Below are positions 15,723-23,536 of a DNA stretch of 64,000 nt, one piece after another. How positions within the stretch are numbered: position 1 is the stretch's first letter; every line of letters begins with the position of its first letter. The DNA is from Sphingopyxis sp. MWB1 (lineage in GTDB: Bacteria > Pseudomonadota > Alphaproteobacteria > Sphingomonadales > Sphingomonadaceae). Both the position numbers and the translations under genes were made by a program. The stretch is from NCBI RefSeq assembly GCF_000763945.1, contig NZ_JQFJ01000002.1, positions 1,612,001-1,676,000 of the forward strand, written 5' to 3'. A model generated the notes under the pieces. The model was given only the letters and a program-made list of their open reading frames with translations. It ran no database searches and had not been told where the DNA came from.

Positions 15723-16247
15723 TTACCGCAGACCGGAAAAGTCGATATCCTGCACCCGGCCGTAACGCACATCGCATTTGAACTTGCCGCGATCATAATA
15801 GCCGCCCCGTCCCCAGCGCCCATTATAGCCATCGCGAACAACGACATTGCCCTTGACCCGATAACCACCTTTACGGCGATCAACATCGGTGATTTGCGTC
15901 ACGTCGGTTCGGCCATAGCGCCGACTATTGCGCTCAACCGCGCGGACACAGCGATCGACGGCGGCGCGGCTGCCGCCATAGCGGCGCTGGTCATAGCCAT
16001 AGCCATCCCGGTCGTAACGATCCCCATAGCGATCGTCATAATCATAGCGGTCGCGACCCGAAGACAGCAGTGCGGCTAGTCCGCCGATCACCACAGCGCC
16101 AGCGATGATTTCGCCTGCACTAATGCCATCGCCATCCCGGTCATGATAGCGGTCGCGCGCGCTGGCAGGGCTGGCACTCAGCGCCATGGCGCCCGCGACA
16201 GCAGCGCCGATGGCGGTTTTGGTAAAGGGTCGGAATGTCGAGGCCAT
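15723..16247 (-). CDS. Exported Asp/Tyr/Arg/Gly-rich protein of unknown function
   Basis: This is a 174-residue protein of a type I have seen in sphingomonads but cannot assign a function. It has a signal peptide ending in SASPASA, then a hydrophobic Gly/Ala-rich segment (ISAGEIIAGAVVIGGLAALL) that may insert in a membrane. A low-complexity stretch of YDRDGYGYDQRRY-type repeats follows. The C-terminal 70 residues have two Cys (VDRCVRAVE and KFKCDVRYG) that could form a disulphide. It is probably a periplasmic or envelope protein. The 100 bases after its start hold no clear promoter. Confidence 0.75.
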   Translation of the reverse strand: MASTFRPFTKTAIGAAVAGAMALSASPASARDRYHDRDGDGISAGEIIAGAVVIGGLAALLSSGRDRYDYDDRYGDRYDRDGYGYDQRRYGGSRAAVDRCVRAVERNSRRYGRTDVTQITDVDRRKGGYRVKGNVVVRDGYNGRWGRGGYYDRGKFKCDVRYGRVQDIDFSGLR

Positions 16248-16369
16248 GGGCGTTCTCCTGAAATAACGGCGACCTTTTGCCGCCTGTTAACGCCCTTTTA
16301 GCCAAGGCGCGGTGACGCCGTGCTGAACCTGCCGCTTATCTGGCGTTCAGACTTTCTAACGCGGCAAAG

Positions 16370-16398
16370 AAAAAGGGGCCGCAAGCGCGACCCCTTTT
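16370..16398 (-). terminator. Rho-independent terminator of pnp
   Basis: On the minus strand, AAAAGGGG and CCCCTTTTT pair around an inner CGC/GCG stem with a GCTT loop, and the T-run TTTTTCTTT ends it. It begins about 20 bases after the pnp stop. The stem has one internal mismatch. Confidence 0.85.
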
Positions 16399-16418
16399 CC
16401 TGTTTCAGAGTGACCCGA

Positions 16419-18722
<2,304 letters not shown>

Positions 18723-18735
18723 GCATTTTCCTTCG

Positions 18736-18760
18736 CCCGCCGGGCCCTATGCCGGGCGGG
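18736..18760 (-). promoter_or_regulatory. Leader hairpin just upstream of the pnp ribosome site
   Basis: CCCGCC (18736-18741) pairs with GGCGGG (18755-18760), about 13 bases before the pnp start; the ribosome site AAGGA sits between the hairpin and the ATG. In enterobacteria PNPase represses its own mRNA through RNase III cleavage of a leader stem. This short hairpin could have a similar role, but that is only an analogy. Confidence 0.4.
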
Positions 18761-18853
18761 GCCTCTTTTTCCGGGCAATCCGGCCCGGGCGGTGCGGGGC
18801 GTCGGTCTGCCCCAAATGGCGAACCCGCCGGATGCGGGAAGCCCCTTCCTGTT

Positions 18854-18915
18854 CCCCGGCGAATACCGGGGCCCATATCCACGGTACGGCGCGAGGCCGC
18901 CCTGGATCCCGGCAT
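18854..18915. repeat. Dispersed palindromic repeat-like element between rpsO and pnp
   Basis: This element starts with the hairpin CCCCGG-CGAATA-CCGGGG (18854-18871). Then come CCATATCC, a GC-rich middle and GGATCCCGG near 18904-18912; the outer parts (CCGGG.ATCCA and TGGAT..CCCCGG) are partly complementary. Its build (GC-rich arms around GGATCC) resembles the small interspersed palindromes of sphingomonads and is reminiscent of the element inside truB. A genome search is needed to prove repetition. Confidence 0.5.
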
Positions 18916-18926
18916 TGGCCGAGATA

Positions 18927-18960
18927 CACAAAATGAAAGCGGCTCCGAACCCGGAGCCGC
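18927..18960 (-). terminator. Rho-independent terminator of rpsO
   Basis: A 9-base-pair stem (GCGGCTCCG, 18939-18947, with CGGAGCCGC, 18952-18960) and a 4-base loop are followed on the minus strand by TTTCATTTTG. It begins 12 bases after the rpsO stop. If efficient, pnp needs its own promoter or depends on read-through. Confidence 0.85.
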
Positions 18961-18971
18961 CCTCTCTATTC

Positions 18972-19241
18972 TTATTTGCGAAGACCCAGCTTCGCGATGA
19001 GGTCGGTGTAACGCCCCTCATCCTTTTTCTTCAGATAGTCGAGCAGGCTGCGACGCTTGTTGACCATCATCAGCAGCCCGCGGCGGCTGTGATTATCCTT
19101 GTGGTGCGACTTGAAATGCTCGGTCAGCGTGTTGATGCGATCGGTCAGGATCGCGACCTGCACTTCGGGCGAACCCGTGTCACCCGTGTCGCGCGCATGT
19201 TCCTTGATCAGTTCGGCCTTGCGCTCAGCGGTAATCGACAT
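18972..19241 (-). CDS. rpsO: 30S ribosomal protein S15
   Basis: S15 binds 16S rRNA early in small-subunit assembly. The 89-residue protein has the classic length and motifs: [37 protein letters not shown] and [16 protein letters not shown]. It follows truB by 25 bases, probably in one transcript, and is closed by its own terminator before pnp. Confidence 0.98.
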
Positions 19242-19266
19242 GTCATTCTTCCTTCGACATCGATGC

Positions 19267-20223
19267 TTACAAATTAAAGCCGCGCACGATTTTCAGCGTT
19301 CCGGCTGAAACTTCAACCAGGGCGACGGGGCGCATTTCGCTATCCCTTGCCCAGTGAAGCCCGTCGTGCGTGCTAACCCCGGTCCAGACACGACCCTGAC
19401 GGATCGCCCCTGCCGCTTCCGGGGAAAGGTCAAGAGCCGGGATGTCGACCAGCCCTGCCTCGAGCGGCAGAATGAAATCTGATTGCGCGGCGCCTTGGCC
19501 GAAAGCGTTCAATTTGTCCAGCGAAATCGCCTGATCGAGCGCAAACGGCCCTGCTTTGGTGCGGCGGAGCATGGTGACATGACCAACGCTGCCCACGGCG
19601 CGGGCAATATCGCGCGCAAGGCTGCGGATATAGGTGCCCTTCGACACATGGGCGGTGAGGGTAATCGATTCAAGCTTCCCTTCCCCGCCCTCGTCACCCC
19701 GGACTGGATCCGGGGTCCATTCAACGCCCGCGGCAATGGATGCCGGATCCAGTCCGGCATGACGAAGGGAATGGATCGTCACCGCCCGCGCCTTCATCTC
19801 CACCGCTTCGCCCTTGCGGGCGCGGTCATAGGCGCGCTGACCGTCGATCTTGATCGCCGAATAGGCCGGCGGCACCTGTTCGATCGCCCCGGTGAAGCGC
19901 GGCAGAACAGCTTCGATATCAGCAAGCGTCGGCCGCACATCGCTGGTCGCGACCACTTCGCCCTCGGCATCAAGCCCGGCGGTCTCGGTTCCGAAGGCGA
20001 TGGTGAAATCATAGATTTTGCTGGCATCGAGCATCCGCCCGCAAAGCTTGGTCGCCTCGCCCAGCGCAATCGGCAGCACGCCGCACGCGAGGGGGTCGAG
20101 CGTGCCGCCATGGCCGACCTTCACCTTGCCCAGCCCGGCCTCGCGGCAGACGCGCTTGACCGCGCCCACCGCCTGGGTCGAGCCGAGGCCCACAGGTTTG
20201 TCCAATATGATCCAGCCGTTCAT
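19267..20223 (-). CDS. truB: tRNA pseudouridine-55 synthase TruB with an in-frame repeat insertion
   Basis: TruB makes pseudouridine 55 in tRNA. The 318-residue protein begins [19 protein letters not shown] and has the catalytic motif [13 protein letters not shown] (Asp near residue 43), [21 protein letters not shown] and CSKGTYIR-like [16 protein letters not shown]. About 30 residues (153-183, HAGLDPAS through DPVRGDEGG) sit between AVTIHSL and [10 protein letters not shown], where E. coli TruB has only a short link. These residues are the translation of a palindromic DNA repeat (19692-19764). They lie on a surface loop of the TruB family, so activity is probably kept. The gene is unlinked here from rbfA by an insertion of four genes. 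Confidence 0.95.
19692..19764. repeat. Palindromic repeat inserted in frame within truB
   Basis: The left arm (19692-19718, CGTCACCCCGGACTGGATCC then GGGGTCC) and right arm (19738-19764, GGATGCCGGATCCAGTCCGG then CATGACG) are near-perfect inverted repeats with a 19-base centre. Such GGATCC-containing palindromes are dispersed between genes in many sphingomonads and rhizobia. Here the element is read through inside truB without a stop codon or frame change, giving HAGLDPAS and [11 protein letters not shown]. Copy number must be checked genome-wide. Confidence 0.85.
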
Positions 20224-20255
20224 TCCGGCCCGCTAGAAGGGCCGAAGCCCTTCTG

Positions 20256-20678
20256 TCAATTTGCCTTGGACTTTTCTGTGTCCATGACATCCTTTGCCTT
20301 GTCGCGCTTCGACGGGGGACCGTCAGAGGTCACAAAGGACGAAAGCGGGCAGCGTTCACCGCGAACGATGATCGTCGAAAAGCGGTCGAGGCGCGAGGTG
20401 CCGCGGGTATCGACGCCAATCGCCTGGGCAAAATCGGCATCGCGGCAAATGCCGGCGAACTGGCCATAATACCAGTCACCGCGGCGATCCTGAATCCAGA
20501 CGCCCCGATCCCGGTCGGCGCGCCAGTTGCGAATCGAGCTGTTGCTGGGGAACACAATCCCCGCCTCTTCACCAAGGACGCGCTGCTGCTGCGTGTCAGC
20601 TTTTGCAGGTTCAAATGCCGCCGCCCCGGTGAGAGGGAGAAAGGCGGCGGCCAGCGCAAGCATGATATTCCGTGTCAT
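20256..20678 (-). CDS. Exported protein of unknown function (DUF6491-like)
   Basis: This is a 140-residue protein with a signal peptide (MLALAAAFLPLTGAAAF). The mature part has IRNWRADRDRGVWIQDRRGDWYYGQFAGICRDADFAQAIG, which resembles the RGVY-QDRRGDWY pattern of the DUF6491 group. Two Cys (GICRD and RCPLSS) could form a disulphide. The C-terminus is Lys-rich. The function is unknown. It lies 32 bases upstream of truB on the same strand, so it may be co-transcribed with the translation genes by accident of insertion. Confidence 0.7.
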   Translation of the reverse strand: MTRNIMLALAAAFLPLTGAAAFEPAKADTQQQRVLGEEAGIVFPSNSSIRNWRADRDRGVWIQDRRGDWYYGQFAGICRDADFAQAIGVDTRGTSRLDRFSTIIVRGERCPLSSFVTSDGPPSKRDKAKDVMDTEKSKAN

Positions 20679-20737
20679 TATTCGAGTCTTTCTTTTACCT
20701 GTTTCAAGACCCTGGCCCTGCCCTTTCCTTTAGCATT

Positions 20738-21295
20738 TCAAGCTGAACCGGCGCTGACCCGGCCCTTCCATTCCTCGGCAAGCAGCGACCACAGGCCGCA
20801 ATCGCGCACAAAGCCGGTCCAGGTGATACGTTCGGCGCGCAGCACGCCTTCCTTGGTGCAGCCGAGCTTGGCCACCGCTGCTTGACTGCGCCGATTGCGC
20901 TCGTCGATCCGAAATTCGATCCGGCGGATACCGACGCCAAAAGCATGGTCGATCATCAACGCCTTCATCCGGTCATTGAGGCCGGAGCCGCGCAGCGCCG
21001 GATCGAGAAAGCTGTTGCCGATCTCGACCGTCTGCGCCGAAGGATCAGGCCGCAGCCAGGCGGTCATCCCCACGAGCCTTTCGTTCAGCAACACGGCATA
21101 GGGCATGCGCTTGTCATGGCTCAGCAGCGCGTTGAAGCTGGCATCGAAATGATCGGGATCATAGCTCGACGAATAAATCGGCCAGATGTCCAGATCGGCG
21201 GCGCACACCGCGCGCAGGGCTTCGCGATGCGCTTCGGCCAGCTTGACGAGCCGCAATTCACCATTGCCGAGTTCGACATAGAGTTGATCAAGCAT
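20738..21295 (-). CDS. GNAT-family acetyltransferase (RimJ/RimL type)
   Basis: This 185-residue protein belongs to the acetyltransferase_3 group: LVKLAEAHREALRAV at the N-terminus, VGMTAWLRPDPSAQTVEIGNSFLDPALRGSGLNDRMKALMIDHAF covering the acetyl-CoA loop, and VGIRRIEFRIDERNRRSQAAVAKLGCTKEGVLR at the C-terminus. These features match RimL-like enzymes, which often acetylate ribosomal-protein N-termini or other amines, but the target is not known. The start overlaps the tdk stop by 8 bases. Confidence 0.88.
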   Translation of the reverse strand: MLDQLYVELGNGELRLVKLAEAHREALRAVCAADLDIWPIYSSSYDPDHFDASFNALLSHDKRMPYAVLLNERLVGMTAWLRPDPSAQTVEIGNSFLDPALRGSGLNDRMKALMIDHAFGVGIRRIEFRIDERNRRSQAAVAKLGCTKEGVLRAERITWTGFVRDCGLWSLLAEEWKGRVSAGSA

Positions 21296-21878
21296 CGCTC
21301 ACCTCGCGGCGCTTTTGCATGAAATGGCGGCGGCACATGGCGACATAGCGGTCGTTGCCGCCGATTTCGGTTTGCGCCCCCTCCACCACCGCCCGGCCCT
21401 GTTCGTCGACGCGCAAGTTCATCGTCGCCTTGCGCCCGCATTCGCACACCGCCTTGAGCTCGACGAGCGCGTCGGCAATGCCCAGCAAGGCCGCCGAGCC
21501 GGGAAAAAGCTGCGCAGCAAAATCGGTGCGCAGTCCATAGCAGAGTACGGGAATATTCGCCTCATCGGCAAGGCGCGCGAGCTGGAACACCTGTTCGCGC
21601 GTCAGAAACTGCGCTTCATCGACCAGCAGGCAGGCGAGCGGTCGCCGTGCGTGCTCGGCCATGCTTTCCGCCCAAATGTCGCTGTCGGGGCTGAATTTAT
21701 GCGCCTCGGCCATCAGGCCGATACGGCTCGTCACCTGCCCCGCGCCATAACGATCGTCGAGCGCGGCCGTCCAAAGCATTGTCTCCATGCCGCGCTCGCG
21801 ATAGTTGAAGTCGGCTTGCAGCAGCGTCGTCGATTTGCCGGCGTTCATGCTGGCATAATAAAAATAGAGCTTGGCCAT
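21288..21878 (-). CDS. tdk: Thymidine kinase
   Basis: Tdk salvages thymidine to dTMP. The 196-residue protein has the P-loop YYASMNAGKSTTLLQ, the Asp-Glu motif in CLLVDEAQFL, the lasso and substrate region GLRTDFAAQLFPGSAALLGIAD, and four zinc-binding residues (two Cys in CECGRKA, Cys and His in CRRHF). The start at 21878 is the only ATG giving this N-terminus. It overlaps the GNAT gene and diverges from abgT across 56 bases. Confidence 0.97.
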   Translation of the reverse strand: MAKLYFYYASMNAGKSTTLLQADFNYRERGMETMLWTAALDDRYGAGQVTSRIGLMAEAHKFSPDSDIWAESMAEHARRPLACLLVDEAQFLTREQVFQLARLADEANIPVLCYGLRTDFAAQLFPGSAALLGIADALVELKAVCECGRKATMNLRVDEQGRAVVEGAQTEIGGNDRYVAMCRRHFMQKRREVSDA

Positions 21879-21934
21879 TTGCTGGCTATAGTGGCCACCG
21901 CCTGGACGACAACAGGATAGAGCAGAGGATTTCC

Positions 21935-23536
21935 ATGACCGCATCGCCCGCCCCCAACGCCGCCCTTCCCCCGCAAAAGGGTATTTTGGGATGGATTGAG
22001 CGGGTGGGTAATCGCTTGCCCGATCCGGTCGTCCTGTTCCTGTGGCTGGTCGCGGGGCTGGTCGTGCTGTCGGCCATCGCCGCAGCCGCGGGCTGGTCGG
22101 CGCTTCATCCGACCGAAATCGACCCCGAAACGGGGCGTCAGAAAGTAATCGCCGCAACCAGCCTGCTCAGCCCCGAAAATATCGCGCGGCTGTGGGTCGA
22201 TATGCCCGTGACCTTCACCCATTTTCATCCGCTCGGCTATGTGCTCGTCGTCATGCTGGGGGCCGGGGTGGCCGAACGCAGCGGCCTGTTCGGCACCGCG
22301 ATGCGCGCCAGCGTACGCGGGGCGTCGCCCGCGCTGCTCACCCCGCTGGTGGCATTGGTGGCAATGATGGGCAATCTGGCCGCCGATGCCGCTTATGTCG
22401 TGCTGATCCCGCTCGCCGCCGTCATTTACCATGCCGCCGGACGTCATCCCGTTGCCGGTATAGCCGCCGCCTTTGCGGGCGTGTCGGGCGGCTTTTCGGC
22501 TAATCTTTTACCGGGCCAACTCGACGCGTTGCTGTTCGGCATTACCGAGGCGGCAGTCGAAACCGTGTTTGGCGACTGGCAGGCGAATATTGCGGGCAAT
22601 TGGTATTTTATCGCGACGATGCTGTTCATCTTTCTGCCCGTCATCTGGTATGTCACCGACCGCATCATTGAACCCCGCCTGGGTCAATATGTGCCGGCAG
22701 GCGCCGCAGCAACGGGCGAGGCCGGCGAACGCGATCGTCCGCTGACCGATGCTGAACGCAAGGGGCTGCGCCATGCCGGACTGGCGATGTTGTTCGTCGT
22801 TGGCCTGTGGCTGCTCTTTACCTTTGGCCCCGGCACGCCGCTAATCGACGAAACCGCGCCGCCCGAAGCGCAGCTTTCGCCCTTTTATCGTTCGCTGGTG
22901 GCTGGATTCTTCCTGCTCTTCCTTCTGGCCGGCTGGGCCTATGGCCGCGCGACGGGGGTGGTCGGCAATCATCGCGACCTCGTCAAGATGATGAGCGAGT
23001 CGATGGGCGACATGGCCTATTATCTCGTCCTTGCTTTTGCCGCAGCGCATTTTGTCGCCATGTTCGCCTGGTCCAATCTGGGGTTGATCCTCGCCGTGCA
23101 TGGCGCGGATGGTTTGCGTGCCATGGACCTGCCCGCGCCGTTGCTGCTGGGCGCCATCGTCTTGCTGACCGCTGTGCTTAACCTGTTCGTAGGGTCGGCG
23201 AGCGCCAAATGGGCGCTGCTTGCTCCGGTCATGGTGCCGATGCTGATGCTGCTCGGCATCAGCGCCGAAATGACCACGGCGGCCTATCGCGTCGGCGACG
23301 GGGCGACCAATATCATCACCCCGCTGATGGTCTATTTCCCGCTGATTCTGATCTTCTGCCAGCGCTGGCAGCCCAATTTCGGGCTGGGCAGCCTTGCCGC
23401 GACGATGCTGCCCTATTCGATCGGGCTGCTGATCAGCGGGTTGGCGATCGTCGTGCTGTGGGTCGGGCTCGACCTGCCGCTCGGGCCGGGCGCAAGCGTG
23501 CATATTCCGGTGCCGAGCGCTGCATCGGCGCCGTGA
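21935..23536 (+). CDS. AbgT-family transporter
   Basis: This 533-residue inner-membrane protein has about 11-13 hydrophobic segments. AbgT-family members either import p-aminobenzoyl-glutamate or export sulphonamides. Family segments are WIERVGNRLPDPVVLFLWLV at the N-terminus, FHPLGYVLVVMLGAGVAERSGLF, VSGGFSANLLPGQLDALLFGITEAA and the late NLFVGSASAKWALLAPVMVPML and YRVGDGATNIITPLMVYFPLIL. The direction of transport cannot be told here. It stands alone on the plus strand and splits the rbfA-truB neighbourhood. Confidence 0.92.
   Translation: MTASPAPNAALPPQKGILGWIERVGNRLPDPVVLFLWLVAGLVVLSAIAAAAGWSALHPTEIDPETGRQKVIAATSLLSPENIARLWVDMPVTFTHFHPLGYVLVVMLGAGVAERSGLFGTAMRASVRGASPALLTPLVALVAMMGNLAADAAYVVLIPLAAVIYHAAGRHPVAGIAAAFAGVSGGFSANLLPGQLDALLFGITEAAVETVFGDWQANIAGNWYFIATMLFIFLPVIWYVTDRIIEPRLGQYVPAGAAATGEAGERDRPLTDAERKGLRHAGLAMLFVVGLWLLFTFGPGTPLIDETAPPEAQLSPFYRSLVAGFFLLFLLAGWAYGRATGVVGNHRDLVKMMSESMGDMAYYLVLAFAAAHFVAMFAWSNLGLILAVHGADGLRAMDLPAPLLLGAIVLLTAVLNLFVGSASAKWALLAPVMVPMLMLLGISAEMTTAAYRVGDGATNIITPLMVYFPLILIFCQRWQPNFGLGSLAATMLPYSIGLLISGLAIVVLWVGLDLPLGPGASVHIPVPSAASAP

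Follow-up and report, generated by a model that had tools for sequence, protein, structure and literature searches.

A palindromic repeat translated in frame within truB, the gene for tRNA pseudouridine(55) synthase, lies in a 64-kb stretch of the 3.12-Mb genome of Sphingopyxis sp. MWB1 (G000, contig C2:1612001-1676000), hereafter the window. The gene product was identified by TIGR00431 (E 4.1e-67), with PF01509 and PF16198 also matched, and is up to 91% identical to other Sphingopyxis TruB proteins. The repeat consists of two repetitive extragenic palindromes (REPs) and belongs to a type designated family A. The features concerned are as follows.

19267..20223, minus strand: truB, tRNA pseudouridine(55) synthase, 318 aa, frame uninterrupted across the element
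19663..19767, minus strand: whole variable loop as cut, TruB residues 153-187, flanked by strands 146-155 and 186-193
19692..19764, minus strand: family-A in-frame palindromic element, a head-to-head dimer of CGTC-tagged REP hairpins, 73 bp
19737..19764, minus strand: first REP hairpin (5′ in the gene), with CGTC tag, 8-bp stem ATGCCGGA/TCCGGCAT, 5-nt loop CTGGA and CCA tail
19692..19719, plus strand: second REP hairpin, in opposite orientation, with CGTC tag, 8-bp stem ACCCCGGA/TCCGGGGT, 5-nt loop CTGGA and CCA tail

The inverted repeat spans 19688-19721 and 19735-19768, as 34-nt arms that are 85% complementary and 13 nt apart. The four mismatches between the 28-nt hairpin arms (19692-19719 and 19737-19764) are compensated within each arm, and each arm forms a perfect 8-bp hairpin of its own, so that the unit is a pair of small hairpins. 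The stems ATGCCGGA and ACCCCGGA are unlike in sequence, each being self-complementary; stem pair 1 is A-T in both units, and pair 2 is T-A in one and C-G in the other. An unpaired CGTC stands at each end of the element, at 19692 (+) and 19764 (-), and single-strand folding is strong (z -7.3 as DNA, -7.2 as RNA), equalled by 0 of 200 shuffles. An initial annotation of the window had described near-perfect in-frame inverted arms with GGATCC cores that add about 30 residues (153-183). The repeat is real and GGATCC occurs in both arms; these are 28 nt long and, by visual count, agree at 24 positions, in the form of a hairpin pair. The added length was overestimated, given that the coding span of the element covers residues 154-177 plus one base (about 24 residues) and the loop is about 21 residues longer than that of uninserted relatives (35 versus 14). 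In the predicted TruB structure, residues 158-180 have a predicted local distance difference test score (pLDDT) below 50, and the model renders the insert as a disordered tip flanked by the two strands of a β-hairpin, as would suit the protein-tolerant segment that the annotation had proposed.

The annotation had also suggested that the element may be mobile, and the arms are not single-copy. An element search of the own genome returned 49 rows at E up to 10, some of which are one place on both strands, and the core pattern, when at most two mismatches are allowed, was matched at 229 sites, compared with 29 for a reversed-pattern control. Elsewhere in the genome there are 45 other distinct two-arm family-A copies; no second copy was found in the window. 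Such dispersal would imply that the element is, or has been, mobile. Family A is rare inside the genes of this genome: a coding test requiring open frames with the genome's codon usage on both sides was passed by only two of 84 places (43 of them two-armed), namely those in truB and sufC. Both window arms carry CTGGATC, and nearly all of the exact genome matches listed have CTTGATC. We do not claim a concerted change from arm to arm, as CTGGATCC is also present in three of the 45 other two-arm copies. Spacer identity is 63% among truB loops, 58% among own-genome copies (better strand), 40% between truB and own-genome copies (both strands averaged) and 29% between truB and shuffled sequence, values that are not decisive as sequence evidence on a single origin of all family-A loops.

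The same turn was then compared in 80 named Sphingomonadales whose truB loci were confirmed by tblastn; these were the best 80 of 135 when ranked by likeness to the insert-bearing query, with one of the six search peptides lying within the insert. In this named sample the loop following VTIHSL varies from 13 to 54 residues, and the 81 loops (window included) fall by their DNA arms into six families: A in 16, B in 3, C in 11, D in 6, E in 10 and F in 2. Another 22 were scored as having none, meaning a loop of at most 19 residues (L075 and L087 hold short family-A-like remnants), and 11 were unclear; the insert is thus missing from some close relatives. The family arms are CCGGACTTGATCCGG for A, CCCTGAGCTTGTCGAAGGGC for B, CCTCCCCGNNNCGGGGAGGGGGACC plus a variant for C, CCCCTCCCCTTCAGGGGAGGGG for D, CTGAACTTGTTTCAG for E and TCATCCCNGCGAAGGCGGGGAT for F. 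Stems are unlike among the six families, with CGTCA-like ends common to A, E and F; judged by sequence, these three belong to the CGTC superfamily, and B, C and D lack the CGTC tag. In 41 of the 48 labelled loops, the palindrome scored higher than any of 100 shuffles. In a clade of four (L107, L112, L121 and L122) the loop keeps a left arm resembling CATGCTGAA, mutated in places, and looks like a decayed E.

Like family A, the other five families are dispersed repeats. Counting both strands and the truB copy itself, family E was dispersed in four of four genomes searched that carry it at the turn (14-79 rows), B in two of two (71 and 79 rows), C in four of four (17-47 rows), D in three of three (23-69 rows) and F in three of three (27, 19 and 1 row, the single row of L089 being weak). 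As a control, 449,544 bp of flanks around the 80 named loci, genes and intergenic DNA taken together and including pnp, rpsO and upstream genes, contained 20 intergenic and six possibly intragenic places, compared with 48 in truB loops. Three of the six are single-arm B matches inside ordinary coding sequence; the other three are one position of a 133-aa open frame in L108, L109 and L113, which is probably intergenic. In the window itself, the pnp-rpsO gap (18723-18971) is G+C-rich with small hairpin-like stretches; there families A-F all scored below the pattern threshold, and a search for inverted repeats of at least 18 nt found none.

A sample of 80 genomes from the window's genus, less biased than the named one but overlapping it (e.g., L278 and L076), gave a TruB match in 77. 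Palindromes of five families occupied 50 of the 71 loops read (A 27, C 11, D 5, F 4, B 3); 16 were short, five were other, and six further loci were unread by the script. On re-inspection of these six, L218 and L317 proved to be family A by peptide, L285 was short and L318 had no readable loop; in L315 (G368) and L316 (G340) the truB frame is broken at the loop, through decay or an assembly error at the hairpin. Among the five other loops, L281 is in fact a short loop that was misread, L290 carries a DADADA simple repeat, L293 holds a decayed D, and L313 is unassigned; L314 has a strong palindrome of a further kind at the same turn (score 23 versus 8 shuffled, peptide SAPPREQKNLTRRRGDAE). Simple repeats (DADADA, GEGEGE) were seen at this turn in L081, L290 and L320, the last from another alphaproteobacterial family, and would fit with a generally tolerant loop. 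An F-type peptide occupies the TruB turn of G246 (L319), from the same family as the window organism. Outside the order, 19 of 30 class-wide loci were readable and measured 21-27 residues in a wider interval, although these 30 were the best-scoring matches of 274 genomes, a choice that disfavours inserts. From these sequences the turn looks short there, as the annotation had stated, and the inserted residues are not conserved across alphaproteobacterial TruB.

Loop state, meaning family or none, changes often. On a truB tree built with the loop removed, at least 33 changes are needed over 70 labelled rows, the 11 unclear loops being left out, and at least 41 with them added. An independent rpsO+pnp tree, which omits six loci of too little flank (L068, L069, L085, L089, L120 and L135), requires at least 31 changes over 65 labelled rows and at least 38 over 75 rows with the unclear ones. 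Both trees are quick searches with support from the Shimodaira-Hasegawa-like approximate likelihood ratio test (SH-aLRT) only, and the counts do not distinguish gain from loss. L095 (C) and L096 (D) are sisters with a support of 100 in both trees, yet their loops are unlike. Within family A (13 truB loops, 78 pairs), arms differ at 6.2% and 4.7% of sites, compared with 35.8% for the spacer and 26.9% for four-fold core sites; for four-fold sites within the arms, the figures are 13.7% and 3.4%. Such low arm divergence would be expected alike from repeated insertion of an arm-constrained family, from homogenisation by conversion and from selection on the palindrome, and the sequences do not separate these.

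The second gene that passed the coding test encodes SufC (L005:1306-2157, plus strand; C2 near 1052371), where a family-A insert lies in frame between VSF and DLLALDPHERAAA. Among the 120 best homologues, the same SufC turn holds either no insert (DGQ and the like) or repeat-like peptides, typed by peptide as A, A-like, B, D-like, F and further types. Four of the six truB families recur at one sufC turn, A and F by DNA arms and B and D-like by peptide. In a genus sample of 60 genomes with 57 loci, 39 had none, five had A (own included), one had F, nine had other loops and three were unread. L322, scored as none, is a misread, its 286-aa frame suggesting an insert, and the other loops include palindromic ones with scores up to 27. 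An AlphaFold model of SufC (pLDDT 42.8) was not used. By peptide, the reading frame of A, B and F in SufC is that in TruB. Hydropathy was dropped as the chooser of frame because the truB frame is not usually the most hydrophilic open one: it is so in 6/16 loops of A, 0/11 of C, 0/6 of D, 0/3 of B and 0/2 of E with an alternative.

Taken together, the data make it probable that genes are cleared of dispersed palindromes everywhere but at tolerant loop tips, and that these tips gain, lose and replace them. REP-type palindromes would spread through sphingomonad genomes, and copies landing in genes would almost always be lost. The TruB turn, and one SufC turn, may accept some 20-40 extra residues without destruction of the enzyme, so that in-frame copies survive there. 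Because the turn stays tolerant while genomes carry several families, it would be reoccupied by different ones; it would also be emptied, decayed or exchanged. We infer both the near-neutrality of the inserts for the enzyme and the route of replacement. A stronger version, to which we give somewhat less than even chances, holds that the TruB and SufC turns are standing docking sites through which selfish palindromes cycle in and out of frame so fast that sister species differ, the loop being an exchangeable cassette of selfish origin and not a one-off insertion.

Several observations weigh against purging and turnover at tolerant tips. A, E and F are all CGTC-tagged, and the six families are therefore not all independent kinds. 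The palindrome did not rise above shuffles in seven of the 48 labelled loops (L069, L070, L076, L077, L079, L088 and L093). Y1_Tnp (PF01797)/RAYT (REP-associated tyrosine transposase) had no match in the own genome, Y1_Tnp being the only transposase sought, and Y1_Tnp was matched in only 15 of 80 genus genomes. Filled and unfilled relatives exist, but neither a target duplication nor a clean empty site was established from the loops listed. The coding test is a codon-score heuristic, covering family A at 84 places with an arm at one mismatch or fewer and not all 229 two-mismatch sites. Finally, tolerance alone does not explain the choice of the TruB turn over many other loops.

The most serious competitor, plausible though we favor it less, is that loops are mostly exchanged as alleles, with homologous recombination in truB swapping the whole loop between Sphingopyxis lineages, so that few insertions and many transfers occurred. 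Same-family loops in non-sister lineages do have a common spacer: the D1 loops of L085, L096 and L115 are 90-94% identical with a core identity of 86-89%, and the B loops of L078 and L084 are 82% identical with a core identity of 86%. However, dispersed copies of one family likewise match along the spacer, and a common spacer is therefore no proof of a common insertion. The L095/L096 pair shows 10 differing sites of 120 immediately right of the loop compared with 2 of 276 further right (p 0.00018), but there is no excess on the left (p 0.42), and the pair is one of four picked by hand with uncorrected p values, making the signal suggestive in single pairs only. Across 37 Sphingopyxis rows, same-family flanks were not significantly more alike than different-family flanks in any distance bin (0 of 8).

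A target-site preference, for sequence or for single-stranded DNA structure, that happens to fit the truB and sufC turns and leaves protein tolerance secondary appears unlikely. It would account for the use of one truB turn by families that have no sequence likeness and for the recurrence of four of the six at one sufC turn. Beyond the CGTC tag that A, E and F share, however, the family ends are unlike, so that a target sequence common to all is not expected; no target consensus was derived, and the 20 intergenic places near truB sit elsewhere. Less probable still is that the insert has been co-opted, either as part of the protein or as an mRNA hairpin that affects expression of truB-rpsO-pnp. 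The arm divergence of family A, far below that of spacer and core, and the strong RNA fold (z -7.2) are what such use might produce, but the same arm conservation is also expected from repeated insertion or homogenisation of one family. Moreover, 16 of the 71 genus loops have 19 residues or fewer (a few with short remnants), and the loops of close relatives have other elements or none, which argues that no particular sequence is needed; the insert is predicted to be disordered, and no Rfam family was found at window positions 16000-23000. Purging of dispersed palindromes outside tolerant tips, with turnover within them, thus remains our preferred reading, and the interpretation in the initial annotation, of a repeat becoming a protein segment, is supported.

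Comparison with known systems places the element among published repeats. REP doublets forming hairpins (REPINs) comprise two inverted hairpins around a spacer and are dispersed. The window element shares this dispersed two-hairpin layout but, lacking a Y1_Tnp/RAYT gene in its own genome, falls outside the REPIN/RAYT system. Rickettsia palindromic elements (RPEs) are likewise in-frame palindromes in conserved proteins, and the parallel drawn in the annotation is apt, though already in print (PMC3733652). RPEs are described as 105-146 bp (PMC2229807) and are Rickettsia-specific, whereas the window element has 73 bp, occurs in a sphingomonad and is not of the RPE-1 type. Intragenic miniature inverted-repeat transposable elements (enterobacterial repetitive intergenic consensus, ERIC, and others) are, according to PMC2229807 and PMC10969869, similarly short non-autonomous repeats fused in frame to genes, but here several families share one protein site.

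The closest match is to CGTC-tagged REPs, whose stems of 8 or 9 bp, loops of 4 or 5 nt and short CCA-like tail are described in PMC3733652. The window element agrees with these in its CGTC ends, 8-bp stems, 5-nt loops, CCA tails, head-to-head dimers, alphaproteobacterial host, many and mostly intergenic copies, and want of a dedicated transposase, and thus qualifies as a CGTC-tagged REP dimer. That paper also places REPs inside the gene for tRNA pseudouridine synthase B in S. maltophilia, E. litoralis and S. alaskensis (Di Nocera et al. 2013, PMC3733652) and RPE-1 in R. conorii truB; it reports different REPs at about one site in Xanthomonas recB and at different sites in other genes of one functional category. 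Since REPs had already been described within sphingomonad truB in 2013, the window element is another copy of a phenomenon already in print. In contrast, the accessible part of PMC3733652 reports neither a turn shared by many families nor turnover among relatives, and families B, C and D here lack the CGTC tag. In the literature searched, in the text available and with supplementary files aside, no account was found of a single protein turn that several palindrome families use; the occupation of one turn by many families, the speed with which it turns over and the parallel in SufC appear new.

One enzyme turn thus offers dozens of natural insertions of at least six sequences, together with uninserted relatives, in the same scaffold, so that the path from selfish DNA to protein becomes testable: whether an insert costs activity, how inserts disappear, and whether it is protein tolerance or DNA targeting that makes a loop hot. 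In Sphingopyxis and its kin, these TruB and SufC loops are often repeat-derived and may mislead work on phylogeny or structure, and it seems that selfish DNA has landed repeatedly at one turn of TruB.
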